Below are positions 5,784 to 23,343 of a stretch of DNA of 25,868 bases, piece after piece. Both the position numbers and the translations under genes were made by a program. The stretch covers positions 1 to 25,868 of IMG/VR virus record IMGVR_UViG_3300043410_002046; one strand, 5' to 3'. The stretch is from a virus. Positions within the stretch are counted from its first letter, which is position 1; each line of letters starts with the position of its first letter. Below the pieces are notes generated by a model. The model worked only from the letters and a program-made list of their open reading frames with translations. It made no database searches and had not been told where the DNA came from.

Positions 5784-5857
5784 CCTCCTGTAGCTCAAAG
5801 GTAGAGCACACGACTGATAATCGTGAGACCATGGATCGATACCATGCGGGAGGACCA
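5784..5857 (+). tRNA. tRNA-Ile(GAT)
   Basis: Acceptor CCTCCTG / CGGGAGG, D-arm GCTC..GAGC, anticodon stem CACGA / TCGTG with loop CTGATAA (anticodon 5816-5818), CCA encoded. The T-loop is ATCGATA, with A in place of the usual T54. Confidence 0.92.
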
Positions 5858-5904
5858 GTTATAAAATGAATAATAACAGTTTTCATTATTATTCATTTTA
5901 TAAC
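5858..5904 (+). repeat. Perfect 19-bp AU-rich hairpin between tRNAs
   Basis: Arms 5858-5876 and 5886-5904 are perfect complements, with a 9-nt loop CAGTTTTCA. It begins directly after the CCA of tRNA-Ile and ends 6 nt before tRNA-Pro. As RNA it would be a long double strand suited to RNase III cutting. Confidence 0.9.
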
Positions 5905-5910
5905 AAGAAA

Positions 5911-5987
5911 CGGAGTGTAGCGCAGTCTGGTAGCGTGGCTGATTTGGAGTCAGTAGGTCGCAGGTTCGAACCCTGCCACTCCGACCA
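5911..5987 (+). tRNA. tRNA-Pro(TGG)
   Basis: Acceptor CGGAGTG / CACTCCG, A73, CCA encoded. Anticodon stem GCTGA / TCAGT with loop TTTGGAG (anticodon 5945-5947). D-arm GCGC..GCGT is typical of bacterial proline tRNAs. Confidence 0.95.
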
Positions 5988-5991
5988 ATTA

Positions 5992-6075
5992 GGAGGTATG
6001 CGAGCAAGGTGCTCAAGCGGTCTTGAAAACCGCGCCACCGCAAGGTTGATGGTTCGATTCCTTGTACCTCCGCCA
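5992..6075 (+). tRNA. tRNA-Ser(TGA)
   Basis: Class II tRNA: acceptor GGAGGTA / TACCTCC, anticodon stem GCGGT / ACCGC with loop CTTGAAA (anticodon 6024-6026), long variable arm, G73 and CCA. Confidence 0.95.
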
Positions 6076-6080
6076 AATTA

Positions 6081-6186
6081 TCCTGCTTTCTAGATACGCA
6101 GGAGAGACCTGTGCCAGATTAACATGAGGGGAACGCTGGCTAATATCGGATTGCTTACCTCTTCAGATCAATGGGCTGAACCGATA
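6081..6186 (+). ncRNA. Candidate structured RNA between tRNA-Ser and tRNA-Lys
   Basis: No ORF or tRNA fits here. Three stem-loops can be drawn: TCCTGC / GCAGGA (6081-6086, 6098-6103), GCCAG / CTGGC (6113-6117, 6136-6140), and a compound stem TATCGG + TTCAG / CTGAA + CCGATA (6144-6149, 6162-6166, 6176-6186) with a 12-nt bulge. Family unknown; a candidate only. Confidence 0.5.
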
Positions 6187-6201
6187 AGGTGTATGGAATA
6201 T

Positions 6202-6277
6202 GGACCGTTAGCTCAGTTGGTAGAGCAGGAGACTCTTAATCTCTTTGTCGCAAGTTCGATCCTTGCACGGTCTACCA
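6202..6277 (+). tRNA. tRNA-Lys(CTT)
   Basis: Acceptor GGACCGT / ACGGTCT (G1-T72 wobble), loop CTCTTAA (anticodon 6235-6237), T-arm GCAAG TTCGATC CTTGC, A73, CCA encoded. Confidence 0.95.
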
Positions 6278-6282
6278 ATTAT

Positions 6283-6358
6283 GAGGCGTTCGAATATCGG
6301 TTTAGTTCGCCACCCTTTCAAGGTGGAAAGATGGGTTCGATTCCCATACGCCTTACCA
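6283..6358 (+). tRNA. tRNA-Glu(TTC)
   Basis: Acceptor GAGGCGT / ACGCCTT, anticodon stem CCACC / GGTGG with loop CTTTCAA (anticodon 6317-6319), T-arm ATGGG TTCGATT CCCAT, CCA encoded. The D-arm GAAT..GTTC is AT-rich and atypical. Confidence 0.92.
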
Positions 6359-6359
6359 A

Positions 6360-6436
6360 GGACTCTTAGCTCAGTAGGTTAGAGCAGCGGTCTTTTAAAC
6401 CGAAGGTGCTGGGTTCGACTCCCAGAGAGTCCACCA
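6360..6436 (+). tRNA. tRNA-Lys(TTT)
   Basis: Acceptor GGACTCT / AGAGTCC, loop CTTTTAA (anticodon 6394-6396), T-arm CTGGG TTCGACT CCCAG, A73, CCA. It follows tRNA-Glu after one base. Pair 27-43 is mismatched (G-A). Confidence 0.94.
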
Positions 6437-6441
6437 AATCT

Positions 6442-6473
6442 GTTATATACAAACTATGAAATTTGTATATAAT
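6442..6473 (+). repeat. AU-rich hairpin between tRNA-Lys and tRNA-Asn
   Basis: TATATACAAA (6444-6453) pairs perfectly with TTTGTATATA (6462-6471), extendable by one or two pairs, around an 8-nt loop. Same placement and character as the 5858 hairpin, though unrelated in sequence. Confidence 0.8.
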
Positions 6474-6490
6474 ATATAGATAAAGTTTAT

Positions 6491-6567
6491 TTGCCTGAAC
6501 CCGAATAGGTATCGGGACCTGACTGTTAATCAGGCCACTGTAGGTTCGAATCCTACCAGGCAAGCCA
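6491..6567 (+). tRNA. tRNA-Asn(GTT)
   Basis: Acceptor TTGCCTG / CAGGCAA, loop CTGTTAA (anticodon 6525-6527), T-arm GTAGG TTCGAAT CCTAC, G73, CCA. The D-stem is CCCG / CGGG and positions 8-9 are AA, unusual for bacterial tRNA-Asn. Confidence 0.92.
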
Positions 6568-6572
6568 TTTAT

Positions 6573-6647
<75 letters not shown>

Positions 6648-6650
6648 TAT

Positions 6651-6758
6651 TTTAGATGGTCTGCGCCAAGTGCCAGAACGCGGCGAACTACTGAGTAAGC
6701 CCCTGACGCCGAAAGAGTAGTCGTGGTAAGAGACTAGCTGGAAAGTCCACCATCTAAA
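6651..6758 (+). ncRNA. Candidate structured RNA with pseudoknot
   Basis: A 108-nt unit closed by a perfect 10-bp helix TTTAGATGGT (6651-6660) / ACCATCTAAA (6749-6758). Inside, CGGCG (6681-6685) pairs with CGCCG (6707-6711), and ACTACT (6687-6692), from within that loop, pairs with AGTAGT (6716-6721), making an H-type pseudoknot. CCAG (6673-6676) / CTGG (6738-6741) adds an inner helix. There is no T-arm, so it is not a tRNA. Position among tRNAs recalls the stable RNAs C and D in the T4 tRNA cluster. Confidence 0.65.
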
Positions 6759-6767
6759 TGATCTTAA

Positions 6768-6843
6768 GGGGCCGTAGCTCAGTTGGGAGAGCGGTAGCTT
6801 TGCAAGCTTCAGGTCTGCGGTTCGATCCCGCACGGCTCCACCA
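6768..6843 (+). tRNA. tRNA-Ala(TGC)
   Basis: Acceptor GGGGCCG / CGGCTCC with the G3-T70 wobble that marks alanine identity. Loop TTTGCAA (anticodon 6801-6803), T-arm TGCGG TTCGATC CCGCA, A73, CCA. Confidence 0.96.
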
Positions 6844-6846
6844 GTA

Positions 6847-6928
6847 TCAGAGGACCTGGACAATAGTTTGGAGATTCTGAGCGGTTGATCGCGTCAAATA
6901 GATCCGACGGGAGCCACGGTCAGCTCCC
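6847..6928 (+). ncRNA. Candidate structured RNA between tRNA-Ala and tRNA-Thr
   Basis: TCAGA (6847-6851) / TCTGA (6876-6880), a small TTGA-TCGCG-TCAA hairpin near 6885-6897 and GGGAGC / GCTCCC (6909-6914, 6923-6928) can be formed. There is no U-tract after the last stem, so it is not a normal terminator. No ORF. Confidence 0.4.
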
Positions 6929-6936
6929 ACTTATTC

Positions 6937-7012
6937 GCTGGTTTAGCTCAGCAGGTAGAGCACCTGATTTGTAATCAGGCGGTCGTCAGTTCGATTCCGA
7001 CAACCAGCACCA
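6937..7012 (+). tRNA. tRNA-Thr(TGT)
   Basis: Acceptor GCTGGTT / AACCAGC, stem CCTGA / TCAGG with loop TTTGTAA (anticodon 6970-6972), A73, CCA encoded. Confidence 0.95.
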
Positions 7013-7117
7013 GAACGCGTACGATCTAGATACTCTAAGCCACCTGATGTACTATATGGTGGATGCCAGTCACAATGCTAGACGTTTCGGACCAAGCTGT
7101 GAGGTCGACTCAATTAT
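7013..7117 (+). other. Inter-tRNA spacer, possibly structured
   Basis: 105 nt without ORF or tRNA. CCACC (7040-7044) / GGTGG (7058-7062) forms a hairpin and CACA...TGTG brackets a second loop (about 7071-7091). Base composition and placement resemble the other candidate RNAs, but no closing helix was found. Confidence 0.35.
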
Positions 7118-7192
7118 TGCGGGATGGAGCAGTAGAAGCTCGCTTGGCTCATAACCAAGAGGTCGGAGGTGCAATTCCTTCTCCCGCTTCCA
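7118..7192 (+). tRNA. Initiator tRNA-fMet(CAT)
   Basis: TGCGGGA / TCCCGCT leaves positions 1 and 72 unpaired (T-T), the feature that marks bacterial initiator tRNAs. The GGAGCAG D-arm start matches fMet tRNAs; loop CTCATAA (anticodon 7150-7152). The anticodon stem has two rather than three terminal G-C pairs and the T-loop TGCAATT is atypical. CCA encoded. Confidence 0.88.
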
Positions 7193-7514
7193 GTTTCGAT
7201 GAGCAGAGTAGAGTCACGGTTTAGTAACAAGTAACCATTGGTTGTTACCTCTGAGTACTAAGCGAGGTCGGGGAGGCCTTGGTCGGCTTCATAACCTTGG
7301 GAACCCGTGCTCTGAAAAGGATAGCGCTGTCCGTCCTCATCGATACCTTATTCGTAGGCGTGGGAACCTACGTATCGCCAACCGGCTTCACACTGCACTG
7401 GCTTGGTTGGATATAGTGACTAGCCACTGGAGTCTAGCACGTGCAGTCGTCCGACCCATAAAATCTACTCCACGAAAAGGGAGATGCTGGATGGCAGTAA
7501 CCAGCGCGAGATTT
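7193..7514 (+). ncRNA. 322-nt non-coding stretch with extensive pairing
   Basis: No credible gene. The 5' half is closed by a perfect 8-bp helix TCGATGAG (7196-7203) / CTCATCGA (7336-7343), with GTAACAA / TTGTTAC (7224-7230, 7242-7248) and CAGAG / CTCTG (7204-7208, 7310-7314) inside. The 3' half has CGTAGG / CCTACG (7353-7358, 7367-7372), CTGCAC / GTGCAG (7393-7398, 7441-7446) enclosing TGGCT / AGCCA, and GCTGG / CCAGC (7486-7490, 7501-7505). It may be one or two RNAs. An ORF at 7242-7637 crosses it and tRNA-Asp and is judged spurious. Confidence 0.55.
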
Positions 7515-7588
7515 GATCCTGTTGCCGTCAGGGAAGGCCGCCCGCTGTCTACGGGCGAAGGAGGGTTCGAGTCCCTTCAGGATCGCCA
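7515..7588 (+). tRNA. tRNA-Asp(GTC)
   Basis: Acceptor GATCCTG / CAGGATC, stem GCCCG / CGGGC with loop CTGTCTA (anticodon 7547-7549), T-arm GAGGG TTCGAGT CCCTT, G73, CCA. T37 and a weak D-stem are unusual, so its activity is less certain than its neighbours. Confidence 0.8.
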
Positions 7589-7603
7589 TTACATAGGTGA
7601 GAC

Positions 7604-7930
7604 ATGGAAGAGCACATCAGCTACGAATACACTATGATGAATGAAATGTATAGAATTAAAGATGGTGGTCAACTTCAAATGGACGTCTTTAATAACATGT
7701 GGAACATCGTAGCTTTCACCACAGCACAGAACCTAATCTGGAGTCAACTCTTTGACCGTATAGAGATTCCAGATGACATTCTTGAGATCCTTGATAAGGT
7801 TGATGATCAAATCTTGTCGCTTACGTCTAGGCGTACTGATAATACTAGTGAAAAGCTTCAGCTCGAAGACTTTTTTACTCTCAAAAGCTTTATCGATCAA
7901 CATAAAGATAAGTTAAACATTCCGGAATAG
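7604..7930 (+). CDS. Hypothetical protein inside the tRNA array
   Basis: 108 residues, acidic and helical, with the leucine/isoleucine-rich middle IPDDILEILDKVDDQILSL. AGGTGAG precedes the ATG. The stop TAG (7928-7930) lies inside tRNA-Gln, a 10-nt overlap. Sits 15 nt after tRNA-Asp. No domain recognised. Confidence 0.7.
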   Translation: MEEHISYEYTMMNEMYRIKDGGQLQMDVFNNMWNIVAFTTAQNLIWSQLFDRIEIPDDILEILDKVDDQILSLTSRRTDNTSEKLQLEDFFTLKSFIDQHKDKLNIPE

Positions 7931-7995
7931 TTCAGCGGTAGAACATCAGACTCTGACTCTGAGTGTCGGTGGTTCGAATCCATCTTCCGGATCCA
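7921..7995 (+). tRNA. tRNA-Gln(CTG)
   Basis: Acceptor TCCGGAA / TTCCGGA, stem TCAGA / TCTGA with loop CTCTGAC (anticodon 7953-7955), T73, CCA. Its first 10 nt are the end of the upstream CDS. Confidence 0.92.
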
Positions 7996-8010
7996 AACAA
8001 CGAGGTCATC

Positions 8011-8235
8011 ATGAAGCTTGTATACTTTGCGGGTTCTTCTAATGGTAAGAAAACAGTTTCATTCTATCACGGTGATCACTTGCAATATGCGCCGCCTATC
8101 ATTACTACATGGTCTCATGTTGCCAAGCATTGGTTACAACATGCACCCGTTGGCGAATGGTTTATGGATGGTGATAAGATCTCAAACTATAAACATCAGT
8201 GGGTAATTGGTGTTGTAAAAGAAAATGTTGCCTGA
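8011..8235 (+). CDS. Hypothetical protein inside the tRNA array
   Basis: 74 residues starting MKLVYFAGSSNGKKTVSFYHG. ATG 8011 was chosen (GAGG upstream); the longer frame begins inside tRNA-Gln. Beta-strand-rich N-terminus and WSHVAKHWLQHAPVGEWFMDG middle. The TGA (8233-8235) lies within tRNA-Cys. Function unknown. Confidence 0.65.
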   Translation: MKLVYFAGSSNGKKTVSFYHGDHLQYAPPIITTWSHVAKHWLQHAPVGEWFMDGDKISNYKHQWVIGVVKENVA

Positions 8236-8301
8236 GCAGGACGGTAATGCGCGGGTCTGCAAAACCTTGAGAATCCGGTTCAACTCCGGAAGGCAACTCC
8301 A
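8227..8301 (+). tRNA. tRNA-Cys(GCA)
   Basis: Acceptor GTTGCCT / AGGCAAC, loop CTGCAAA (anticodon 8259-8261), T-arm TCCGG TTCAACT CCGGA and T73, as in bacterial tRNA-Cys. CCA encoded. Overlaps the upstream CDS by 9 nt. Confidence 0.92.
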
Positions 8302-8446
8302 AGTTTGTGGTAAGACGAGTCTCATCTAGCTCGGCCTGCAGGCGATACATGATGGGGTCGGAGTAATTAACCGACGAAAGGAGAATGGGAAGTCCAACTG
8401 GCTTGTGAGCCATAAATTGGACGGATACCTCACCTGCCACAAAACT
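8302..8446 (+). ncRNA. Candidate structured RNA between tRNA-Cys and tRNA-Arg
   Basis: 145 nt bracketed by AGTTTGTGG (8302-8310) and CCACAAAACT (8437-8446), a 9-bp helix with one bulge. Inside: GTCGG / CCGAC (8357-8361, 8371-8375) and a compound stem GTCCAA + TGGCT / AGCCA + TTGGAC (8392-8403, 8408-8422) with a TGTG loop. No ORF on the plus strand. The multi-branched fold is clear; the family is unknown. Confidence 0.62.
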
Positions 8447-8452
8447 AATTAC

Positions 8453-8530
8453 GGTCAGTTAGCTCAACTGGATAGTAGCATCGGAATACGGATCCGAAGG
8501 TTGAGGGTTCGAATCCTTCACTGACCACCA
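8453..8530 (+). tRNA. tRNA-Arg(ACG)
   Basis: Acceptor GGTCAGT / ACTGACC, stem TCGGA / TCCGA with loop ATACGGA (anticodon 8488-8490), A73, CCA. A34 would normally be changed to inosine by host TadA to read CGU, CGC and CGA. Confidence 0.93.
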
Positions 8531-8544
8531 TTATATATAGATCT

Positions 8545-9093
8545 ATGGAAAACATTTATTGTGCTCACTTGAACTTTGACATTGATACTTCTCCTCTTGA
8601 GAAGATTAAACAGTCTTGTAATAAGACACAGCTTGGGATCTTTGAGTATCCACAAGTTGATGAGAACTTAAAAAAGTTTCTCAGTAAATATCAGATAGTC
8701 ATAAGTCGAGCAGAAGTTTTTCATACTCCAGCCAAAGCAAAATTGCCCATTCACGTTGATATGGAAGAATTCAGTAATATAGTAAAACTGAATTGGGTTA
8801 TCGGTGGTGGTGAGATGATTTGGTGGAAACCAAAAGACAATACAGTACTTCGGCATCATACTACACCGATTGGTACAAAATATCTATTATTTGATGAATC
8901 AGAATGTAATGAAGTTTATCGTCAGAAAGTAGGTTGGCCAAGTTTGGTAAATGCTGGTGTTCCACATTCTGTTGATAATCATACAGATCAAAGTAGATGG
9001 TGCATAAGTCATAATATACATTGTTCTATTACTGGAGAACAATTACAGTGGCAAGATGCTATTAAAAGATTGGCGGAGGTAGCTCAGTGGTAG
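8545..9093 (+). CDS. 2-oxoglutarate/Fe(II)-dependent oxygenase-like protein
   Basis: 182 residues with a complete double-stranded beta-helix oxygenase signature: metal ligands H70 and D72 (PIHVDM) and H141 (GVPHSV), followed ten residues later by R151, the usual 2-oxoglutarate salt-bridge arginine. Strands NWVIGGGEMIWWKP lie between, as in the family. It should couple decarboxylation of 2-oxoglutarate to hydroxylation of an unknown substrate. It sits alone between tRNA-Arg and tRNA-Gly, and its stop falls 21 nt inside tRNA-Gly, so the C-terminus (LAEVAQW) is encoded by the tRNA. The ribosome-binding site is weak. Confidence 0.72.
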   Translation: MENIYCAHLNFDIDTSPLEKIKQSCNKTQLGIFEYPQVDENLKKFLSKYQIVISRAEVFHTPAKAKLPIHVDMEEFSNIVKLNWVIGGGEMIWWKPKDNTVLRHHTTPIGTKYLLFDESECNEVYRQKVGWPSLVNAGVPHSVDNHTDQSRWCISHNIHCSITGEQLQWQDAIKRLAEVAQW

Positions 9094-9147
9094 AGCTTTT
9101 GCTTGCCAAGCAAAGGGTCACGGGTTCGAACCCCGTTCTCCGCTCCA
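9073..9147 (+). tRNA. tRNA-Gly(GCC)
   Basis: Acceptor GCGGAGG / TCTCCGC, stem TTTGC / GCAAA with loop TTGCCAA (anticodon 9105-9107), T73, CCA encoded. Confidence 0.95.
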
Positions 9148-9152
9148 ATATT

Positions 9153-9227
9153 GCGGGTATAACTCAGTGGTAGAGTCACAGTCTTCCAAACTGTTGGTCG
9201 TGAGTTCGATTCTCATTGCCCGCTCCA
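9153..9227 (+). tRNA. tRNA-Gly(TCC)
   Basis: Acceptor GCGGGTA / TGCCCGC, stem ACAGT / ACTGT with loop CTTCCAA (anticodon 9185-9187), T73, CCA. Confidence 0.95.
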
Positions 9228-9232
9228 AGTAT

Positions 9233-9309
9233 GCCCCTGTAGCCCAATTGGTAGAGGTGCCGGTCTTAGAAACCGTAGGTTGTCAGTTCGAATCTGACCT
9301 GGGGCACCA
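9233..9309 (+). tRNA. tRNA-Leu(TAG), short variable loop
   Basis: Acceptor GCCCCTG / CTGGGGC (one T-T mismatch), loop CTTAGAA (anticodon 9267-9269), T-arm GTCAG TTCGAAT CTGAC, A73, CCA. Bacterial leucine tRNAs normally carry a long variable arm; here only about five bases (AGGTT) lie between the anticodon stem and the T-arm. Confidence 0.88.
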
Positions 9310-9314
9310 AACAA

Positions 9315-9390
9315 GCCCGCTTAGCTCAGTTGGTAGAGCAACTGATTAGTAATCAGTAGGTCGGCGGTTCGAATCCGTCAGCGGGCACCA
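9315..9390 (+). tRNA. tRNA-Thr(AGT)
   Basis: Acceptor GCCCGCT / AGCGGGC, stem ACTGA / TCAGT with loop TTAGTAA (anticodon 9348-9350), A73, CCA. A34 in a threonine tRNA is rare in bacteria. Confidence 0.92.
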
Positions 9391-9393
9391 TAT

Positions 9394-9467
9394 GCCATCT
9401 TAGTGTAATGGGAGCACGAGAGTTTGTGACACTCTTAGCACTGGATCGTAACCAGTAGATGGTACCA
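9394..9467 (+). tRNA. tRNA-His(GTG), A73 type
   Basis: Acceptor GCCATCT / AGATGGT, stem AGAGT / ACTCT with loop TTGTGAC (anticodon 9426-9428), CCA. There is no G at -1 and the discriminator is A, not C, the form known in alphaproteobacteria. The T-loop is ATCGTAA, lacking T54. Confidence 0.9.
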
Positions 9468-9472
9468 TTAAT

Positions 9473-9557
9473 GGGGAGACGGCGAAGTAGGAGAGTCGCG
9501 CTCGACTGTAAATCGAGTTCTTAAGATGAGTTGGTTCGATTCCATCTCTCCCCACCA
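9473..9557 (+). tRNA. tRNA-Tyr(GTA)
   Basis: Class II: acceptor GGGGAGA / TCTCCCC, stem CTCGA / TCGAG with loop CTGTAAA (anticodon 9508-9510), a variable arm of about a dozen bases, A73, CCA. The T-stem has one mismatch. Confidence 0.94.
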
Positions 9558-9563
9558 ATTAAT

Positions 9564-9640
9564 GCCGATGGGTCGGTGGCGGCCATCGAACAGTCCTCAT
9601 AAGACTGCCTAAGTTGTTTCGAGTACAACCATCGGCACCA
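9564..9640 (+). tRNA. tRNA(CAT), elongator Met or Ile2, odd D-arm
   Basis: Acceptor GCCGATG / CATCGGC, stem CAGTC / GACTG with loop CTCATAA (anticodon 9598-9600), T-arm GTTGT TTCGAGT ACAAC, A73, CCA. The D region folds as CGGTGG-CGG-CCATCG rather than the usual 4-bp stem with a GG loop. Whether C34 becomes lysidine (Ile) cannot be told. Confidence 0.8.
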
Positions 9641-9654
9641 ATTAAGGAAATATC

Positions 9655-9984
9655 ATGTACGATAAGAAAGTGATTCGCTATATTTTTGACCAAGAAAACT
9701 TACTTGTTCCTTGGTATCTGATTGCATCATATGCTTATTATGTAAAAGATAATCCTATTATTTCTGATGGATTGTTTGATAAAATTTGTAAAGATATGCT
9801 TGAACATTGGGATAAAATTAATCATTATCACAAGTACTTAATTGACAAGGAATCTTTAGATGCTGGTACTTGTCTATTAAAAGATGATGAATACGAATGT
9901 GATACTGAGGGTAAGACACCAATAGGGTATTATCCAAAGAGAGTTAAATACATTTATGAGAGCCTCAAGGAGACTAAAGTATGA
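9655..9984 (+). CDS. Phage hypothetical protein resembling DNA-ligase N-terminal segment
   Basis: 109 residues. LVPWYLIASYAYYVKDNPIISDGLFDKICKDML... follows the pattern YY..D.P.ISD..YD.L at the start of NAD-dependent DNA ligases, but nothing of the nucleotidyltransferase domain is present, so ligase activity is not expected. AAGGAAA lies upstream. The TGA overlaps the next ATG (ATGA). Confidence 0.7.
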   Translation: MYDKKVIRYIFDQENLLVPWYLIASYAYYVKDNPIISDGLFDKICKDMLEHWDKINHYHKYLIDKESLDAGTCLLKDDEYECDTEGKTPIGYYPKRVKYIYESLKETKV

Positions 9985-10226
9985 TTCATGTAGAAAAACT
10001 CAAACATCATATTGAAGCACTTAAGAAGAAACATTCTGACCTCGACAAGCAAATTGAAGAATCTTATCTTCATTACGATCCCGACAATGTCATTAAAAAA
10101 CTAAAATATGTAAAACTTCAATTAAAAAATGAAATTGAAGAATGTGAGAAAAAGATTGCTTCGGTAGCTCAGTTGGTAGAGCACCTGCCTGAAGAGCAGG
10201 GTGTCGGCGGTTCGACCCCGTCCTGA
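9981..10226 (+). CDS. DUF465-like coiled-coil protein running through tRNA-Phe
   Basis: 81 residues. The first 60 (HIEALKKKHSDLDKQIEES ... LKYVKLQLKNEIEECEKKI) form a helical hairpin like the small DUF465/YdcH family. The frame has no stop before tRNA-Phe, so the last 20 residues (SVAQLVEHLPEEQ...) are read from the tRNA gene and end at TGA 10224-10226. AAGGAG sits in the upstream gene. Confidence 0.65.
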   Translation: MIHVEKLKHHIEALKKKHSDLDKQIEESYLHYDPDNVIKKLKYVKLQLKNEIEECEKKIASVAQLVEHLPEEQGVGGSTPS

Positions 10227-10233
10227 AGCACCA
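10158..10233 (+). tRNA. tRNA-Phe(GAA)
   Basis: Acceptor GCTTCGG / CTGAAGC, stem CCTGC / GCAGG with loop CTGAAGA (anticodon 10191-10193), A73, CCA. Almost wholly inside the end of the upstream ORF. Confidence 0.95.
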
Positions 10234-10238
10234 TAATA

Positions 10239-10324
10239 GGAGAGTGGGCAGGACGGTAATGCAGCGGTTTGCTAAACCGTAGAACCGCAAGGTTCAATTG
10301 GTTCGACTCCAATACTCTCCGCCA
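10239..10324 (+). tRNA. tRNA-Ser(GCT)
   Basis: Class II: acceptor GGAGAGT / ACTCTCC, loop TTGCTAA (anticodon 10271-10273), long variable arm AGAACCGCAAGGTTC, G73, CCA. Confidence 0.95.
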
Positions 10325-10336
10325 TAAATACCATGA

Positions 10337-10410
10337 ATCGGTGAAGTGTTACGGTAGCACATCAGTCTCCAAAACTGAGGGCCTGGGTTCGACTCCTAGC
10401 ACCGGTGCCA
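10337..10410 (+). tRNA. tRNA-Trp(CCA)
   Basis: Acceptor ATCGGTG / CACCGGT, stem TCAGT / ACTGA with loop CTCCAAA (anticodon 10369-10371), G73, CCA. Last tRNA of the array. Confidence 0.93.
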
Positions 10411-10482: not shown

Positions 10483-12327
10483 ATGAAAAAATTATTAGGA
10501 GCGCTGGTCGCTCTGTTTGCTCTTGTCAGTACCGCTTATGCTGATCAAGCACTTATTATAGACGCAGGTTATAGCACAGTAACACAAAACGTAAAAGGTC
10601 GCCTTGAAGCAGCAGGGCATACTGTTACAGTAACAACAGATTTATCTTTAATTCCAACAACCACTGGTTCATATCAACAAGTTTGGGATCTAAGATATTC
10701 AGCTGCTTTAACTTCAGGTGAACAGACAAAATATCAATCATTTATTACTAATGGTGGTTTTGCTTATTTCGTAACTGAAAATCCTGGTTGCTGTATGGCA
10801 CGTAACAATTCTGTTGCTGCTCTTATTACATCATTAGGTGGCGGTTCAACTCAAATTGGTCCAGGTTGGGCTAATAATGTTGAAACAAATATGAATACCA
10901 CTTATATGACTAACGGTTTAACAGTTAACTATGCTGCTGTTGCCGCTATCGTTAACAGTCAAGGTATCCCTCTTATCTCTGACGGCTCTGGTGCTGTATC
11001 AGGTATGTCGTGGATCGGCCGTGCTGATGCTCTTGGTCAGGGAGTAACTGGTACAATTATTACTGTTGCTGATACTAACTGGCTGGATCAATCACGTTTC
11101 GTTGTAGGCGGTACTTCTGCTCAGCAACAAAACGTACAAGCACTTGATGATATCATTCGTGGTGTTGTTGCCGGCACTGTTGCTGGTACAATTAGTGCTT
11201 CAGGCAATGGTTCTGGTGCTACAAATGGTAATTCTGGTGGCGGTTCTCCTCCACCTCCAACTCTTGTAAGTTCAGCTCCAGGTCAAAATATTGTTAATTC
11301 TTCAACTGCATATGGCCAAGCTGTTGTTACTAATCAAGTAGTAGATGGTAGTACTAAAGCTGGTAAGAATCTAACAGTAACAAGAACAACTACACCAGTA
11401 ACTGTTACACCTTACACCGTAACTACAGTAACTACACCTACAACTGTAGATACATATAGTGATGGTTCAACTGTTACAACAAATGGTACCGCAGTAACTA
11501 CCACCACATCTGGTGATATTATTACTGTCGGTCAATCTACATCTCAATCAAAAACTATTTCTGCTTCTGCTACAGCTGATTCAATTAAAGCAAAGAATAT
11601 GAACTTATTCTTAATTGATCCACTGTCACAGAACGATGGTACTTGGGCAACACCTTATGCCGGTTATATCTCATCTGTAGGTAATTACCGTATGCAAGGT
11701 GGTTCATTTGGCTGGCAGAAAACTGTTGAGAATAACTCAATCGGTATTGCTGGTAATATGATTTACGGTAAAGCAGGTAATCAGCCAGGATCACAATCTG
11801 ATTCAGAATCTTATTCTGGTAATATGTACTTACTATCTAAGCAATCATTTGCTTGGTTAAAAGCAGTACTTGGTTATAGCAATACCGAGCACAGAACACA
11901 GACAAGTATTCCAGAATTTGCATTAGCTAATAATTCTAAAGTTCGTCAGAATAACTATTATGCAGATCTTGGTGCTTATTCAGCTGATACTCTTTATGGT
12001 ATTAGAGCAGTTGGTGGTGCTACAATTAATTATAGCACTTTAAAGGGGTCAGAATCCGGTTCTCCTCTGCTTTCAACTTTACCTGAGAATGGTGGAACTA
12101 CTAAAGTATCACCATATTTTGGTTTAAGATATGAATATCAGAAAGCATCTTTTGAAACTCGTGTATATACAAATACCGAGTACAAAACTGTTATTACTAA
12201 TAAAGCTTCTATTAATCAGCCAATCCGTGAGAATGTATTTGTTAACGGAACTCTAGGTTTTGATAAAAGCTTGGATGAAAGATACAATAATACTTACGGT
12301 ACCATTGGCCTAAGAATAGCATTCTAA
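10483..12327 (+). CDS. Exported protein with outer-membrane beta-barrel-like C-terminus (autotransporter-like)
   Basis: 614 residues. A signal peptide MKKLLGALVALFALVSTAYA (1-20) is followed by an alpha/beta domain (about 21-245) with AGHTVTVTTDLS, YQQVWDLRY and GGFAYFVTENPGCC, reminiscent of class-I amidotransferase/ThuA-like folds. Then comes a linker GGGSPPPP (near 255), a Thr/Val-rich low-complexity region to about 360, and about 240 residues of alternating strands (from about 373) ending IGLRIAF, with the C-terminal Phe typical of outer-membrane barrels. This resembles a small autotransporter, odd for a phage. It could alter the infected cell surface or be a virion adhesin. GGAG lies upstream; many GGT/ACT codons. 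Confidence 0.7.
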   Translation: MKKLLGALVALFALVSTAYADQALIIDAGYSTVTQNVKGRLEAAGHTVTVTTDLSLIPTTTGSYQQVWDLRYSAALTSGEQTKYQSFITNGGFAYFVTENPGCCMARNNSVAALITSLGGGSTQIGPGWANNVETNMNTTYMTNGLTVNYAAVAAIVNSQGIPLISDGSGAVSGMSWIGRADALGQGVTGTIITVADTNWLDQSRFVVGGTSAQQQNVQALDDIIRGVVAGTVAGTISASGNGSGATNGNSGGGSPPPPTLVSSAPGQNIVNSSTAYGQAVVTNQVVDGSTKAGKNLTVTRTTTPVTVTPYTVTTVTTPTTVDTYSDGSTVTTNGTAVTTTTSGDIITVGQSTSQSKTISASATADSIKAKNMNLFLIDPLSQNDGTWATPYAGYISSVGNYRMQGGSFGWQKTVENNSIGIAGNMIYGKAGNQPGSQSDSESYSGNMYLLSKQSFAWLKAVLGYSNTEHRTQTSIPEFALANNSKVRQNNYYADLGAYSADTLYGIRAVGGATINYSTLKGSESGSPLLSTLPENGGTTKVSPYFGLRYEYQKASFETRVYTNTEYKTVITNKASINQPIRENVFVNGTLGFDKSLDERYNNTYGTIGLRIAF

Positions 12328-12657: not shown

Positions 12658-13602
12658 ATGACAACCAAGATACGTTGGGTTATTGCCCATGAACCAATCG
12701 GTCTCTTCCTTAAAGTAGCTGAACGTTTCAGCAAGGAAGTTAATGAAAAGACTGGTGGTAAATTTGATATTGAAGTACTTTCGCTTACAGATTATGCCAA
12801 CAAATATAACGAAGGTAAGAAGATTACCAAGTATCATTTGATGGATATGATCAATAATGGTACTATCGAAATGAGCCATATCTACACTACATGGCTTGCC
12901 GATTACAATAAAGATCTTCATGCATTAGATCTTCCATTCTTGTTCCGTGATCATAAGCACGCTGACCGTATCCTTGAAGGTGACCTTGGCAAGAATCTAT
13001 TGGCTGGTGTTTCTCAGAACTCAAACATCAAGGCCATGAGCTTTACTTACTCAGGTGGTTATCGTATTGTTCCTGCTAACTTCAAGGCAGATACAGTAGA
13101 ATCATGGCAGGGTAAGGTAGTTCGTACATCACGTTCACCAGTTGCTGAAGATGTTTTCAAGCTTCTCGGTGCTGAACCTCGTGGTGATATTGCTCTTGAA
13201 GATATGAATGAAGCAGCCACACGTGGTGAAATTGCCGCTGGTGAATCTACATATGTTCGCGTGTTCCCACTTGAACACGATAAGGCATTCGAATATGTCA
13301 ACGATACAGCACACAGCCTGTTCTTGACTAGCATTATTGTCAACAATGACTTCTTTGCTAAGTTTGATGAAGAAACTCAGAGAATTATGGCTGATGCCGC
13401 TGCCACTGCAGCCCGCATTGAACGCCGTGAATCTGTTGCGGATATTCCAAACATTCTTGCTGAATGCAATGAAAAAGGTGTTGAAGTTGTAAAGATGTCT
13501 GCCGAAGAAGAATCAAAGTTCAAAGCTATCACTTCTAAGGTATATGATAAGTATAAAGACTACTTTACACCTGGTCTTGTCCCAGCACTTGTTGCTGCCT
13601 AA
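12658..13602 (+). CDS. DctP-type TRAP solute-binding protein, no signal peptide (copy 1)
   Basis: 314 residues, the normal mature size of DctP-family proteins. IRWVIAHEP opens the first strand. DLPFLFRDHKHADRIL (91-106) is the family hallmark, and YSGGYR (R136) and GKVVR (R156) supply the two arginines around the ligand carboxylate. DctP proteins bind C4-dicarboxylates or other organic acids in the periplasm for TRAP importers. Here there is no signal peptide, so the product should stay in the cytoplasm, and no TRAP membrane subunits are nearby. ATG 12658 (GGAGAG 6 nt upstream) is preferred to GTG 12613. A paralog follows. Confidence 0.82.
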   Translation: MTTKIRWVIAHEPIGLFLKVAERFSKEVNEKTGGKFDIEVLSLTDYANKYNEGKKITKYHLMDMINNGTIEMSHIYTTWLADYNKDLHALDLPFLFRDHKHADRILEGDLGKNLLAGVSQNSNIKAMSFTYSGGYRIVPANFKADTVESWQGKVVRTSRSPVAEDVFKLLGAEPRGDIALEDMNEAATRGEIAAGESTYVRVFPLEHDKAFEYVNDTAHSLFLTSIIVNNDFFAKFDEETQRIMADAAATAARIERRESVADIPNILAECNEKGVEVVKMSAEEESKFKAITSKVYDKYKDYFTPGLVPALVAA

Positions 13603-13608
13603 TTTATA

Positions 13609-13630
13609 GGGCGGGGTTTCGGCTCCGCCC
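13609..13630 (+). terminator. GC-rich hairpin between the DctP paralogs
   Basis: GGGCGGGG / CTCCGCCC (8 bp with one G-U) around TTTCGG, then only ATTT. It is strong as a hairpin but poor in U, so it is likelier a partial terminator or a 3' stability element. Confidence 0.6.
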
Positions 13631-13648
13631 ATTTAACAGGGGATTCAT

Positions 13649-14668
13649 ATGAATCAAGAACCAATGAAACTTCGCTGGCTTATTGCACATCAACCAGCAC
13701 ATCTGTTCATCAGAACTGCCGAAGCTTTCGCAGCTGAACTTGAAAAAGAGTTGCCGGGTCAGTATGAAATAGAAATACTAACCATGAGAAAATACATGGA
13801 AAAGTATGGCGATATTCCAGAGCTGAAGATGAAGCCCGGTACTGTTGAAGGCATTGAGAAACTAGAAGGTCAAGAATTCTTTGAAAGTGTCGAGTGGGAT
13901 AAAATCAAAGAAAAATGGCAAGCATTCTTCAATGCATTGAAAACGGCCAAGATACATTTAAGTCAAACACAAGTTACTACAATCGGTTATCTTCATTCAT
14001 TATATAATGTACTTGATCTTCCATTCTTGTTTAAAGATCATGATCATGTTTCTCGTGTACTTGATGGTAGCATTGGCGACAAGCTTTCACAGAGCCTTAA
14101 AGATAAAACTGGTGTACGCGGTCTTGCATTTACTTACAGTGGCGGTTATCGTATTATTGGATCTAATCATCCAATTAAAAATCTCGATGAACTCAAAAAT
14201 GTTGAAGTAACTACTGTTCCGTATACAAAAGAAATGTTTGCTAAACTGGCAAAGAATGCTATAAACAGACAGTCTCAAAAGCTTGATGAAATTGCAGAAA
14301 ATGTAAGTTCCGGTGGTGCTATTGAAACCACATATTTACGTTTTGCTGGTAAAAATGTTCTGAAGACTAATCATAGTATTTTTATGACTTCAATTCTCAT
14401 TGGCGAGCCTTTCTTTGAAACTTTACCTGAAGAACATCGTGAAGTATTCCAGAGAGCGGCAAAGAAAGTAGCAAAACTTGAACGTCAATGGTCGCTTGAG
14501 GATGCAGAAACTTACGAGATCAATGCTGAAGAAAAAGGCATTTCAATCGTAGATCTTTCCGAGGAAGAAAAGAATGCTATGAAGAGTATTGCACCAAAAC
14601 AATATACTCGTGCATATAGCAATATTAAAGGAAGCGTAGTTTTAGTAGATGAAATTCAAAATTCTTAA
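13649..14668 (+). CDS. DctP-type TRAP solute-binding protein, no signal peptide (copy 2)
   Basis: 339 residues, paralog of the preceding gene: IRW/LRWLIAHQP start, VLDLPFLFKDHDHVSRVL (121-138) and FTYSGGYR (R168). An insertion of about 30 residues (55-100) follows the first domain. The second ligand arginine of copy 1 (GKVVR) is replaced here (NVEVTT, 184-189), so the ligand or mode of binding has probably changed. It has no signal peptide, and GGGGA lies upstream. A retained fold with a changed pocket suggests divergence after duplication. Confidence 0.8.
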   Translation: MNQEPMKLRWLIAHQPAHLFIRTAEAFAAELEKELPGQYEIEILTMRKYMEKYGDIPELKMKPGTVEGIEKLEGQEFFESVEWDKIKEKWQAFFNALKTAKIHLSQTQVTTIGYLHSLYNVLDLPFLFKDHDHVSRVLDGSIGDKLSQSLKDKTGVRGLAFTYSGGYRIIGSNHPIKNLDELKNVEVTTVPYTKEMFAKLAKNAINRQSQKLDEIAENVSSGGAIETTYLRFAGKNVLKTNHSIFMTSILIGEPFFETLPEEHREVFQRAAKKVAKLERQWSLEDAETYEINAEEKGISIVDLSEEEKNAMKSIAPKQYTRAYSNIKGSVVLVDEIQNS

Positions 14669-14685
14669 TTGATTTGGAGATTATA

Positions 14686-14934
14686 ATGTTTAAAACATGG
14701 CGTAATAAGTGGAATGAGAAGCAACGACGCTCAATCACAAAAGTGGTGACCTGGAGAATCTTGGTCACCATTACTAACTTTATAGGCGGATGGTTAGCAT
14801 CCGGCAACCCTTGGGTCGGCCTTGGTGTCGTCTCGTTTGCTTTAGTAGTGAACTCTATACTTTACTGGGTACACGAACGTATGTGGAATGTAACTGACTG
14901 GGGTAAAGAAATTGCCGAAAGTACTACAGTATAA
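14686..14934 (+). CDS. DUF2061 small membrane protein
   Basis: 82 residues. RSITKVVTWRILVTITNFIG opens the first membrane helix, SFALVVNSILYWVHERMW the second, and WNVTDWG ends the core: the DUF2061 pattern (K..TWR..., H.R.W). The family consists of small two-helix inner-membrane proteins of unknown role. ATG 14686 (GGAGA 5 nt upstream) is preferred to TTG 14674. Its 3' end overlaps the likely TTG start of the next gene. Confidence 0.8.
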   Translation: MFKTWRNKWNEKQRRSITKVVTWRILVTITNFIGGWLASGNPWVGLGVVSFALVVNSILYWVHERMWNVTDWGKEIAESTTV

Positions 14935-16000
14935 TAACTTTGTTCTCTCTGCAATGCTCAGAGATCCAGACAAAGAACTCTTACCATTATTTGAACCTTA
15001 TTTGGCTGATAATTATCTGAAAACATTTAGAAGGTATGATGACTTTCTAATGACTCAGAATGTTGTGTGTGATAGATCAGGTGCATTGCCGCACTTCGTC
15101 AATATGACTTATCCACACAAAATGCCAGATTATGATCCTACGTTCAATAAATCTTTCCAAGAAGTAGCAGAAGAACGAGCAAAAGAATTACTTCAAACTA
15201 ACAAACGAATTAAAGTTTGTTGGTCGGGCGGTATTGATAGTACTTACGTGCTTCTTCTCCTTGGCAATATGGCCAATGATCGTTCACAAATTACAGTCTA
15301 TGGTTCTTATAGTTCAATTGTTGAATCTGGTGATATCTTTGATAGATATATTAAAGATAGATTTAAGTATGAAATCAATGTATATAATTCTGAGAAACTC
15401 AGAAAATCGAAAGATGATAGTGTATACATTACAGGATTCCAAGGCAATCAGATCTTTGGTCCAACTGATGATTTCTTTGCCACGAATCAGCCGCAGGTAT
15501 TTTTCCATCATACGATGGGAACACCAGAAACAATCTATGAAGATTATAGAACAAATGTTAATCCAGAACTTCTAGAATTTCTTCAACCTGCTATTGATAG
15601 ATCTCCAAGAAAAATTGAAACTGTTTGTGATCTGAGATGGTATTGTATCTTTAATATGGACTGGCATAATGGTTTATATTTTGCTACAAGTGAAATGCCA
15701 AAAGAAAGATTTATGAATACACATCATTTCTTTAATACTGAAGACTTTCAGAAATGGGCTATAACTACAAAAGAACCATTTACAAAAATTAAAGGTAATT
15801 CCAAAACACACAGATGGCAAATGCGTGATTATATTGCTGAATGTGGCTTGGTAGAATATAGTAAAAATAAACCCAAAGCAATTTCCAATCTGGCTTCTGC
15901 TAGTGGATGGTGGTTTTTCCTAACCGAAAATCTAGATAACATTTACTATGACAAATCAACAAGGGAGTTGACAGTTGGATCAAAATACATCAAATTCTGA
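14912..16000 (+). CDS. PP-loop ATP pyrophosphatase-like protein (asparagine-synthase type), copy 1
   Basis: 362 residues from TTG 14912 (348 from ATG 14954; the start is uncertain). KVCWSGGIDST (101-111) is a textbook PP-loop that binds the ATP pyrophosphate in N-type ATP pyrophosphatases. The later NTHHFFNTEDFQKWA, then K and R residues, resemble the C-terminal half of the asparagine synthase domain. Such enzymes adenylate a carboxyl or carbonyl group before amidation, cyclisation or thiolation. There is no glutaminase domain, so another nitrogen donor or reaction is implied. It lies between DUF2061 and a small ORF, with a paralog two genes later. Its TAA is inside the next ORF. Confidence 0.75.
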   Translation: MPKVLQYNNFVLSAMLRDPDKELLPLFEPYLADNYLKTFRRYDDFLMTQNVVCDRSGALPHFVNMTYPHKMPDYDPTFNKSFQEVAEERAKELLQTNKRIKVCWSGGIDSTYVLLLLGNMANDRSQITVYGSYSSIVESGDIFDRYIKDRFKYEINVYNSEKLRKSKDDSVYITGFQGNQIFGPTDDFFATNQPQVFFHHTMGTPETIYEDYRTNVNPELLEFLQPAIDRSPRKIETVCDLRWYCIFNMDWHNGLYFATSEMPKERFMNTHHFFNTEDFQKWAITTKEPFTKIKGNSKTHRWQMRDYIAECGLVEYSKNKPKAISNLASASGWWFFLTENLDNIYYDKSTRELTVGSKYIKF

Positions 16001-16289
16001 ACCTTATGTAGATTGTTATATCTTTGAAGTAATGCAGTGGCCAAGATATGGTGATCACTATAACTATTATGTGCTCAATGATATTTTCTATTTTAACTCT
16101 TTGATAGGCGCTTCTCCCGAGAAAGCAAATTCTAGGTATATGAAAATACCTGAGCATTATATCTTGAATGCTGAAATGGAAAAAGTATTAGAGCAAAAAG
16201 ATAGAATTATCGGCAAGCCTGTAATAAGAAAAATAACTGAGCAGAGTTGGGCATTTGATACTTTTGTTATTGATCAAGAGATAATTTAA
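15975..16289 (+). CDS. Hypothetical protein between the PP-loop genes
   Basis: 104 residues from a TTG start; AAGGGAG lies 8 nt upstream and no ATG fits. It has many aromatic residues (CYIFEVMQWPRYGDHYNYY). It overlaps copy 1 by 26 nt, and its TAA overlaps the ATG of copy 2 (TAATG). Tight coupling suggests it works with the PP-loop proteins, perhaps as a partner or substrate. No domain recognised. Confidence 0.65.
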   Translation: MDQNTSNSEPYVDCYIFEVMQWPRYGDHYNYYVLNDIFYFNSLIGASPEKANSRYMKIPEHYILNAEMEKVLEQKDRIIGKPVIRKITEQSWAFDTFVIDQEII

Positions 16290-17320
16290 TGCTCGTAAGT
16301 TATTTTATGCATGCATATATGGCTCATGAATCAATAAGTCATACTATGAAAAATCAAACCAAAATAAGATGGGTGGAAAGACCTGATTTGGTAAGAAATT
16401 ATCTAGCAATAGCTAGATCAAGAAAACAATTTATTCCTTATTATGATAGATCTAAAACTCTACCACACTTTCTTCCTATTTCGTGTATAGCACCACTTCC
16501 TCCACCAGAAAGAAAAGTAGTGGTGCCATTTGAAGAAGCATTTTTTCAGCATGCAGAAATGCTTATAAAGAAAAATAGAGTATTAAATGTTTTTTGGAGC
16601 GGTGGTATAGATAGCACTTGTATCTTGAGTGGTCTATTTTTGGCTGGTGCAAGACCTGATCAAATTCACGTAAGTCTAACAAAAAGATCAGTTGATGAAT
16701 ATCCATGGTTCTTTGAAAATATTATTAAAGGAAAATTAAGTCACGGAGATCCCAATACAAGTCTTGCCGATCAAATTGATTTATTTCCGGATGAATATCT
16801 AAATATCACGGGTGATCTTTTTGGTGATATGTTTGCGGCTATTCAAGCAATTAAAGATTTTGATCGTGATGCTCCATGGCAAGATAATTTTACTGATAAG
16901 AAATTAATTGAGTTTTTGGAACCACTGGCTGAAAATAATGGTTATGTAAAATTAAAAACTATTTCTGAGATGAGCTGGGGCTTGAAGTTTTTCCTACAGT
17001 GGCAATTTAATAAAATAAGAAAATGCATTTATTCAGATAAGTTTTTTCAGAATACTCATCATTTTGCCGATGATGATGATCTGCTCCAATACTGGAGTAT
17101 ATATAGTGAAGAATCCAGATTACCGAATAAGCAAAAAGCTAGGGAAATGATTCTTTCTTTTACTAAAGATCTTGATTACTATAAAAATAAGAAAAAAGTT
17201 AGATCAATAGAAGATACCAATAAACACATCCTTGGATGGCATGGTTCACTTTCTCGTGAACCATTATATAACAACTATAGCAAAGTTTTTCTAGAAGATG
17301 GGAGATTGATATTAAGATGA
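16289..17320 (+). CDS. PP-loop ATP pyrophosphatase-like protein, copy 2
   Basis: 343 residues. NVFWSGGIDST (100-110) is the PP-loop. The preceding TLPHFLPIS and the later NTHHFADDDDLLQYWSI align with copy 1 (ALPHFVNM, NTHHFFNTEDFQKWAI), so the two are paralogs with the same architecture. The C-terminus is lysine-rich. Stop and next start overlap (ATGA). ATG 16289 is used; a second ATG at 16346 is possible. Confidence 0.75.
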   Translation: MLVSYFMHAYMAHESISHTMKNQTKIRWVERPDLVRNYLAIARSRKQFIPYYDRSKTLPHFLPISCIAPLPPPERKVVVPFEEAFFQHAEMLIKKNRVLNVFWSGGIDSTCILSGLFLAGARPDQIHVSLTKRSVDEYPWFFENIIKGKLSHGDPNTSLADQIDLFPDEYLNITGDLFGDMFAAIQAIKDFDRDAPWQDNFTDKKLIEFLEPLAENNGYVKLKTISEMSWGLKFFLQWQFNKIRKCIYSDKFFQNTHHFADDDDLLQYWSIYSEESRLPNKQKAREMILSFTKDLDYYKNKKKVRSIEDTNKHILGWHGSLSREPLYNNYSKVFLEDGRLILR

Positions 17321-18246
17321 AAAAGTTGTTTACAGTACTGTTAGCATGGTGTATGATTACAACTATGGCTAATGCAAAAACATACAAAATCATAGTTCCT
17401 AATGAAGCAGGAACTGGTTCTGACATTAATGCAAGAATCTTTACTGAAAAGCTTAAAGATTATAGCGAACATAAGTTCATTGTTACCAACGTGCCTGGTG
17501 CTCAAGGCATTAAAGCACACGAACAATTTGTCAATACAAAAGATAATGATGAAATTCTTTTCACTCATTGGGGTCGACAGATTTTTCTTGAAGGTACAAT
17601 GAATCTTAGATTTTCTACTATGGATTATCGCCCAATTATAATGATTAGTGAAAGTCCTTTATTTTTACTCACTCGTGATACCAAACCACTTACGGAAAAT
17701 TCTTGGGTGGCAATTTCTGGTGGTCCATCACAAGTGGCAGCAACAATACTAAGAAATAAATCAGGTATTAACTTCAACGTTATTTTATATCCTTCTGATA
17801 AAGAAATCTTTAAGGAAATGTTAAACGGTGCTGTTGACTTTACATTTACTACAGCACCGACTGCGGTACCTATGTTAAAGACTAAGCAACTTGGTGTGAT
17901 GTATACCACACAAACTACACCTGCTAAAGATCTTGAAACTGTTCCTACCAGCGATAAGCATCAATGGGGATTTAATCTATCAAACTGGCAAGCCATCTAT
18001 GCTAATAAATATATGACCAGTGCTGAGATAGCAGAGATTAATGCCGCCTTTAGTAAGGCAATGGATAATCCTGAACTACAAAAGAAGTTTGAAGAATTAG
18101 GAACATACATACCTAAACCTGAACAAAGAACATCTGAATATCTGGATAAGAGACAAAGAGCTGAACTTAAAGACTTTAAAGACAACTATCTGAAACTTGG
18201 TTGTCTAAAGATTCCCGAGGGAAGCAGAAAAATAATCTGTAACTGA
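17317..18246 (+). CDS. TctC/Bug-type periplasmic binding protein
   Basis: 309 residues. Signal peptide MKKLFTVLLAWCMITTMANA, then IIVPNEAGTGSDINARIFTEKL and NVPGAQGIKAHE, which track the Bug pattern (IVPF.PGG..D..AR...EKL, N.PGA.G). Bug proteins bind carboxylates such as citrate, aspartate or nicotinate for tripartite (TTT) transporters. No TctA/TctB is present, so it may feed a host transporter or scavenge ligand. Coupled to the PP-loop copy 2 gene by ATGA. Confidence 0.82.
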   Translation: MKKLFTVLLAWCMITTMANAKTYKIIVPNEAGTGSDINARIFTEKLKDYSEHKFIVTNVPGAQGIKAHEQFVNTKDNDEILFTHWGRQIFLEGTMNLRFSTMDYRPIIMISESPLFLLTRDTKPLTENSWVAISGGPSQVAATILRNKSGINFNVILYPSDKEIFKEMLNGAVDFTFTTAPTAVPMLKTKQLGVMYTTQTTPAKDLETVPTSDKHQWGFNLSNWQAIYANKYMTSAEIAEINAAFSKAMDNPELQKKFEELGTYIPKPEQRTSEYLDKRQRAELKDFKDNYLKLGCLKIPEGSRKIICN

Positions 18247-18382: not shown

Positions 18383-18934
18383 ATGCAAAAGACTATCGTG
18401 TCGGCGCTCGCTGTTCTTGCGTCGATGGCTGCAGCTTCGGCTGCTGACCTTCCAAGCAAGGCTGCACCGGCTTCTCCACTTCCTGCTTTCGCCGCTGGCG
18501 GATACTACGCAGGTGTTAATGTGGGCGCTAATGCAGATTCAGCACGCGTCTATTCTGGTGGTGCTGTTGCTGGCTGGAACGTCCTTCCGTTCCTCGCAGT
18601 AGAAGGTACATATGACCTTTCGCGCCCACAGGCTAAGGTCAACCGCGAATACAACTGGCAGAACACTGTCGCTGTAAACGCTGTGCCTCAGTACAAGGTT
18701 CCTGGCACTGATATCACTGCTTATGCAGTTGGTGGTATTGGTTATCGTTGGAACAGTGTATCTACAGTAGCGGATCATTCCGTTTATAACATCGGTGGTG
18801 GCCTCAAGTACGAGTTCGCAAAGAATCTTGAACTCGACGGCCGTTATCGTCGGATCGATGGCCTTCAGAAGAAAGATCGCACAAGCACTTCATCTGAAGA
18901 TCGTGTCACCTTCGGTGTGAACTACAAGTTCTAA
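18383..18934 (+). CDS. Omp25-like outer-membrane beta-barrel protein
   Basis: 183 residues. Signal peptide MQKTIVSALAVLASMAAASA, then ADLPSKAAP, the signature of rhizobial outer-membrane proteins. Alternating strands (GGYYAGVNVGAN, VAGWNVLPFLAVEGTYDL, YAVGGIGYRWN, NIGGGLKYEFAKNLELDGRY) end VTFGVNYKF with terminal Phe. It is about the size of an eight-stranded barrel. GC content and codon choice (GTC, CTC, CGC) differ from the AT-rich neighbours, consistent with capture from a host. It may alter the infected-cell surface, for instance for superinfection exclusion. AAGGAG lies upstream; its TAA overlaps the next ATG. Confidence 0.85.
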   Translation: MQKTIVSALAVLASMAAASAADLPSKAAPASPLPAFAAGGYYAGVNVGANADSARVYSGGAVAGWNVLPFLAVEGTYDLSRPQAKVNREYNWQNTVAVNAVPQYKVPGTDITAYAVGGIGYRWNSVSTVADHSVYNIGGGLKYEFAKNLELDGRYRRIDGLQKKDRTSTSSEDRVTFGVNYKF

Positions 18935-23268: not shown

Positions 23269-23343
23269 TGGGGCATCGTCTAATCGGTAGGACAGCTGAC
23301 TTTGACTCAGTCAATCGTGGTTCGAGTCCATGTGCCCCAGCCA
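23269..23343 (+). tRNA. tRNA-Gln(TTG), isolated
   Basis: Acceptor TGGGGCA / TGCCCCA, stem GCTGA / TCAGT with loop CTTTGAC (anticodon 23302-23304), G73, CCA. Lies 12.9 kb from the array, inside a run of small protein genes. Confidence 0.95.

Follow-up and report, generated by a model that had tools for sequence, protein, structure and literature searches.

Phage genes for signal-less DctP-fold and PP-loop proteins form a recurrent group that suggests an undescribed small-acid modification pathway

A run of seven phage genes, the core of which (DctP plus PP-loop) is conserved as a unit in related phages, suggests an undescribed phage pathway that attaches a small acid to something. The run is located on the + strand at positions 12658–18246 of the window, by which we mean the whole stretch of 25,868 bases analyzed (positions 1–25,868 of the virus record IMGVR_UViG_3300043410_002046, IMG/VR); genes for a T4-type sliding clamp and clamp loader, 25 tRNA genes and the origin in a virus record identified the window as phage DNA. 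We tentatively favor a recurrent modification module, in which a cytoplasmic, signal-less DctP-fold protein and a stand-alone asparagine-synthetase-like PP-loop enzyme would together form an amide on a product of the phage or its host. The module comprises the following genes:

12658–13602, + strand: DctP1, tripartite ATP-independent periplasmic (TRAP)-type solute-binding protein without signal peptide (PF03480, E 2e-44; open reading frame (ORF) open from 12613)
13649–14668, + strand: DctP2, divergent DctP paralogue without signal peptide (PF03480, E 3e-31; alignments)
14686–14934, + strand: DUF2061 small membrane protein (PF09834, E 4e-12; ORF open from 14674)
14912–16000, + strand: PPa, stand-alone PP-loop protein with TTG start (SGGIDST motif; asparagine-synthetase-like predicted fold)
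15975–16289, + strand: sORF, conserved 104-residue protein between PPa and PPb (homologues in tail-fiber loci)
16289–17320, + strand: PPb, second PP-loop protein (SGGIDST; matched by the PPa search, E 3e-19)
17317–18246, + strand: Bug/TctC-type binding protein with N-terminal signal sequence (PF03401, E 3e-10)

In this order, the genes are spaced by gaps of 46 and 17 nucleotides and then by overlaps of 23, 26, 1 and 4 nucleotides, in agreement with the overlaps of 1–26 nucleotides that the initial annotation had given for the later genes. Its gene list was likewise correct as judged by Pfam, motif and alignment, and its description of three carboxylate-binding folds holds at the level of the folds only (two DctP, one Bug/TctC).

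In profile scans of viral contigs, the DctP family was found on 415 stretches, the PP-loop family on at least 438 and a family of radical S-adenosylmethionine (rSAM) enzymes on 288. Co-occurrence was determined for 90 DctP loci forming 38 clusters at 90% identity; the neighborhood counts rest on the best 80 loci of the scan and are counts among close relatives. A PP-loop gene was found at most five genes away from DctP in 30 of the 38 clusters and directly adjacent in 20, which corresponds to a binomial p of ~3e-18 at an assumed background of 15%; the backgrounds (15% or 30%) were chosen by us, and the p-values serve as a guide only. Bug was near DctP in 13, DUF2061 in 8 and TctA in 5 of the 38 clusters, and rSAM was present in 47 of the 90 loci. 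The grouping of DctP with PP-loop genes is beyond chance, and the scattering of homologues that would have spoken against the initial annotation was not observed. Outside this core, the module varies in Bug, DUF2061 and the second DctP. These counts also bear on a hot spot in which unrelated accessory genes loosely pile up. The varying composition fits such an origin, as do the compared Bug proteins, whose mutual likeness of only 16–18% makes them look separately acquired, but the frequency of the PP-loop partner and the order rSAM–sORF–DctP–PPa, constant across many contigs, render it very improbable.

Three genomic settings were distinguished. The commonest among the fetched loci, not foreseen in the initial annotation, is a tail-fiber setting, in which a large fiber/baseplate gene, a fiber protein, rSAM, a small ORF, DctP, PP-loop and fiber-assembly genes follow one another; sORF homologues sit between rSAM and DctP in many of these loci. 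The second is an accessory island with an outer-membrane-type protein, PP-loop genes, DctP and DUF2061, represented by the window and by G005 (173 kb), which is colinear with the first 5.5 kb of the window. DctP1 is 77% identical to its G005 counterpart (77–78% across G005 and L002) and DUF2061 76%, whereas the PP-loop genes share only 21–25% identity and belong to other subfamilies, indicating that the pairing was kept and the enzyme type changed. A PPa homologue (47% identity) adjoins DctP in L003 and L004, and DUF2061 copies with 76–88% identity adjoin DctP or PP-loop genes in L001, L002 and G005. In the third, a transporter setting, L005 has DctP next to TctA and a Bug-like protein, in a locus with further genes for neck proteins, a tail-sheath stabilizer and terminase. 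The viral contig L085 (5761–15936) contains TctB, TctA, two Bug, two DctP and two PP-loop genes, and with them the full gene set of a tripartite tricarboxylate transporter. On two phage contigs (L002:8981–12068 and L033:83–2192), genes for a beta-keto acid cleavage enzyme, a short-chain dehydrogenase and an AMP-binding ligase were observed near DctP; Pfam confirmed the cleavage enzyme and the ligase of L002.

DctP1 and DctP2 scored 152 and 109 bits, respectively, with PF03480 (gathering cut-off 23.4 bits) and are 32% identical in the alignment; GGAG precedes the ATG of DctP1 at 12658. Neither protein has an export signal peptide, as judged from the N-termini aligned across 40 homologues and from a hydropathy below that of Bug (maximum 10-residue value: 95th percentile of DctP 1.58 vs 5th percentile of Bug 1.80). 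The start was located 5–9 residues ahead of a conserved WVIAH motif in 83 of 91 DctP ORFs; in the remaining ones, the longest-ORF start lies farther out or, in one instance, 4 residues before the motif. Lacking signal peptides, DctP1 and DctP2 should be cytoplasmic. Both pocket arginines, R136 and R156, are retained in DctP1; of 40 homologues, at least 90% have each of them. In the alignment with solved TRAP receptors, R156 falls on their KxR arginine, and it is the equivalent of R147 in SiaP, where Arg-147 is required for tight ligand binding (PMC4646407). DctP1 and DctP2 share fold and sequence family with the TRAP solute-binding proteins (DctP/SiaP), but differ from them in the missing signal peptide, in the loss of one arginine in DctP2, and in having a PP-loop gene as usual partner, with no DctQ/DctM membrane genes among the module genes. 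A DctP search of phage records gave five weak matches only.

The signal sequence of Bug and the TctA/TctB genes of related phages would be accounted for if the phage boosted organic-acid import and use by its host, with Bug and DctP as receptors and the PP-loop enzymes as unrelated metabolic genes. However, without a signal peptide and without a TRAP membrane subunit in the module, DctP cannot serve uptake in the usual way, and what DctP is most constantly paired with is a PP-loop gene, not a permease. Such auxiliary nutrient uptake is unlikely, and the missing signal peptide weakens the case for DctP as a plain uptake receptor in particular. A signal would also be needless if the phage tail delivered DctP to the periplasm, where it might dock on a host TRAP permease and aid DNA entry. 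About half of the loci have the gene within the tail-fiber/neck region, and the receptor fold is retained; however, the gene is not among virion genes in the window, G005, L002, L026 and others, the conservation of the pocket arginines suggests that ligand binding matters, and the PP-loop partner would be left unexplained. We regard a DctP of the virion as improbable.

The Bug protein starts with a hydrophobic N-terminus (MKKLFTVLLAWCMITTMANA) and matches the family of tripartite tricarboxylate receptors (Bug/TctC, PF03401). Unlike in tripartite tricarboxylate transporters, and in the L085 contig with its TctA and TctB, TctC is the only component in the module, and TctA and TctB are absent from the window. 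No close viral relative of the window Bug was found, and none was confirmed in viral contigs.

PPa and PPb both contain the SGGIDST motif and are 27–30% identical to each other; the PP-loop residues S91, G92, G93, D95 and S96 were invariant in 47 homologues. Sequence searches gave little beyond the motif region (LarE, nitrile synthetase, asparagine synthetase), and a weak PF00733 (Asn_synthase) match was obtained for 18 of the 47 relatives (best E 7e-4). An AlphaFold2 model of PPa (predicted local distance difference test (pLDDT) 89.4, predicted template-modeling score 0.90) was compared with the PDB by Foldseek, yielding six matches at E ≤ 0.001 (E 1e-4 to 8e-4, probability 0.99–1.00) to human and E. 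coli asparagine synthetase, carbapenam synthetase and beta-lactam synthetase. We read PPa and PPb as stand-alone synthetase domains that, going by the predicted fold, would activate a carboxyl group for amide formation. PPa has the SGGxDS PP-loop of asparagine, beta-lactam and PesC nitrile synthetases (PF00733) and resembles them in its predicted fold, but lacks a glutaminase domain and stays under the Pfam threshold in sequence. The chemically nearest enzyme is the asparagine-synthetase-like PesC, which modifies a peptide C-terminus in a pathway for ribosomally synthesized and post-translationally modified peptides (RiPPs), as enzymes of this type do in RiPP pathways (PMC13060819). A role in queuosine formation or tRNA thiolation was rejected because the matches to QueC, LarE and TtuA spanned the PP-loop motif region only and the fold search favored asparagine-synthetase types. 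For the sORF between the two genes, no convincing Pfam match and no PDB match to its predicted model (pLDDT 84) were obtained.

Relatives of DctP also occur in bacteria. A scan of bacterial genomes gave 29 loci, many of them in Bdellovibrionota and other proteobacterial metagenome assemblies, though phage contigs may be among them. A signal-like N-terminus is seen in several copies that look chromosomal. One of these (L369) adjoins genes for an MBOAT acyltransferase, a carrier protein and an AMP-binding ligase, so that an acid-activating enzyme, albeit of a different type, lies beside the DctP family outside phages, too. Other copies have no signal and adjoin an MFS transporter (L384). A signal-bearing relative in a Bacteriovoracaceae contig of 153 kb (L370:5923–12222) was found ~4 kb from an rSAM gene of the phage family (E 5e-91).

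From these data, we infer a single pathway shared by DctP and the PP-loop enzyme, with the following ligand, chemistry and target. DctP1 would bind a small carboxylate in the cytoplasm and hold or present it; the PP-loop enzyme would adenylate a carboxylate with ATP and join it to a nitrogen nucleophile, so that a product of the phage or its host acquires an amide. For the window, the exported Bug could help to gather the acid outside the inner membrane, on the periplasmic side, and TctA or TctABC of related phages would possibly serve the same purpose. The initial annotation had proposed that the set could capture and modify a small acid; the retained pocket arginines of DctP1, the PPa fold, TctA/TctABC in relatives and the ligase neighbors in bacteria give indirect support to acid capture and activation. 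If the modification module is real, phages have turned a transporter-receptor fold into an intracellular carrier of carboxylates for an amide ligase, and no such use turned up in the open-access papers searched.

Several results weigh against a DctP/PP-loop modification module. DctP2 has lost the R156-equivalent arginine and gained an inserted segment in the alignment. The TM-scores of the six best PPa matches are low (0.31–0.37; ~0.36 for the top match with E 1e-4), and the window PP-loop proteins did not match PF00733 at E ≤ 1e-3. None of the partner genes occurs near DctP in three of the 38 clusters, and in another five the partners nearby are limited to Bug, DUF2061 or rSAM. Furthermore, rSAM is absent from G005 (173 kb) and G007 (207 kb), which carry DctP and PP-loop genes; DctP and PP-loop-family matches without rSAM were also obtained for G009 and G012. 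DctP and PP-loop proteins are thus not strictly dependent on rSAM, and one common target is not established.

A cytoplasmic ligand-binding fold next to a possible activating enzyme would also suit a counter-defense sponge, in which DctP hides a host metabolite or immune signal that the PP-loop enzyme inactivates chemically, and the location of the window module in an accessory island next to a tRNA cluster is in line with this. However, no defense link was found, and a sponge would leave unexplained why many phages have the gene among late tail genes and next to an rSAM maturase; we regard it as no more probable than a virion-borne DctP.

In the tail-fiber setting, the fiber protein encoded 2–4 genes upstream of rSAM often terminates in Asn-Cys repeats (e.g. 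NCNCNC); the gene immediately upstream encodes a small Cys-rich protein in other phages. Examples of such C-terminal (Asn-Cys)n fiber or small Cys-rich proteins 1–4 genes upstream of rSAM/SPASM are L028:4350–5492, L020:4716–5081, L210 and L236. A Cys-tailed gene was found up to four genes upstream in 47 of 67 rSAM loci with upstream sequence vs 9 of 308 other genes (Fisher p 1e-34; the loci are not all independent). In the converse DNA scan for NCNCNC followed by a stop, 80 loci were obtained, 46 of which had an ORF ending in this way; all 29 rSAM-bearing loci were within these 46 (p 4e-10). The rSAM proteins scored above the cut-off for the SPASM model and resembled RiPP maturases (PapB of the ranthipeptides, SCIFF, others) below their own cut-offs. 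Different from these maturases, the putative substrates are mostly tail-fiber C-termini, and the window has no rSAM. Both association tests concern rSAM and Cys tails and alone tie neither DctP nor PP-loop to the fiber; many rSAM/Cys-tail loci have neither gene, and the two halves are joined by synteny only.

The vicinity of rSAM/SPASM and (Asn-Cys)n-ended fibers makes the fiber tip the likely target of the modification module in the tail-fiber setting. Whether DctP, the PP-loop enzyme, the small ORF and rSAM/SPASM constitute one RiPP-like pathway modifying (Asn-Cys)n fiber tails, with the window carrying the DctP/PP-loop half, is doubtful; the tip would then perhaps gain a non-protein group with metal- or receptor-binding properties. 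In the window, which is a fragment, neither an ORF with CxxxCxxC nor a Cys-tailed protein was found, and as some large relatives lack rSAM as well, the fiber role may not apply to it. If correct, the pathway may raise the question whether tail fibers are modified by enzymes, with a bearing on host recognition by phages.

The rSAM/Cys-repeat half is testable in the cultured Achromobacter phage JWF. Its fiber protein gp028 (L404:3844–5295) carries NCNCDCNCNCSC directly ahead of a Hint-like sequence (CFPAGTMVLMADGT), and Hint cleavage, as read from the sequence, would place the repeat at a new C-terminus. As in the related phages, an rSAM of the same family (43% identity) is encoded two genes after the fiber (gp028–gp030); unlike in the module, no DctP or PP-loop gene was found in this 13-kb locus. 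The initial annotation knew of no described phage system with this make-up, and full-text searches of open-access papers gave no description of the module either. Each gene family is already known; what appears new is the make-up and distribution, and the function may still prove ordinary.

Outer-membrane-type proteins are encoded on both sides of the module (18383–18934 and 10483–12327), with G005 homologues of 48% and 35% identity, respectively. They are possibly receptor-masking or exclusion proteins. The upstream gene is the following:

10483–12327, + strand: signal-bearing protein with beta-barrel-like C-terminal end, upstream of the module (35% identical to a G005 protein)

Its G005 counterpart lies immediately upstream of PP-loop, c17, PP-loop and DctP. 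The window contains 25 tRNA genes, 24 of which are clustered at 5784–10410 and the last of which is at 23269; a tRNA-Met like those of Caulobacter and Rhodobacter phages only hints at an alphaproteobacterial host. In Pseudomonas phage Cygsa01 (L405:3763–5912), two PP-loop genes around a 90-residue ORF are located downstream of fiber-like genes, in the same PP-loop/small ORF/PP-loop layout as in the window.

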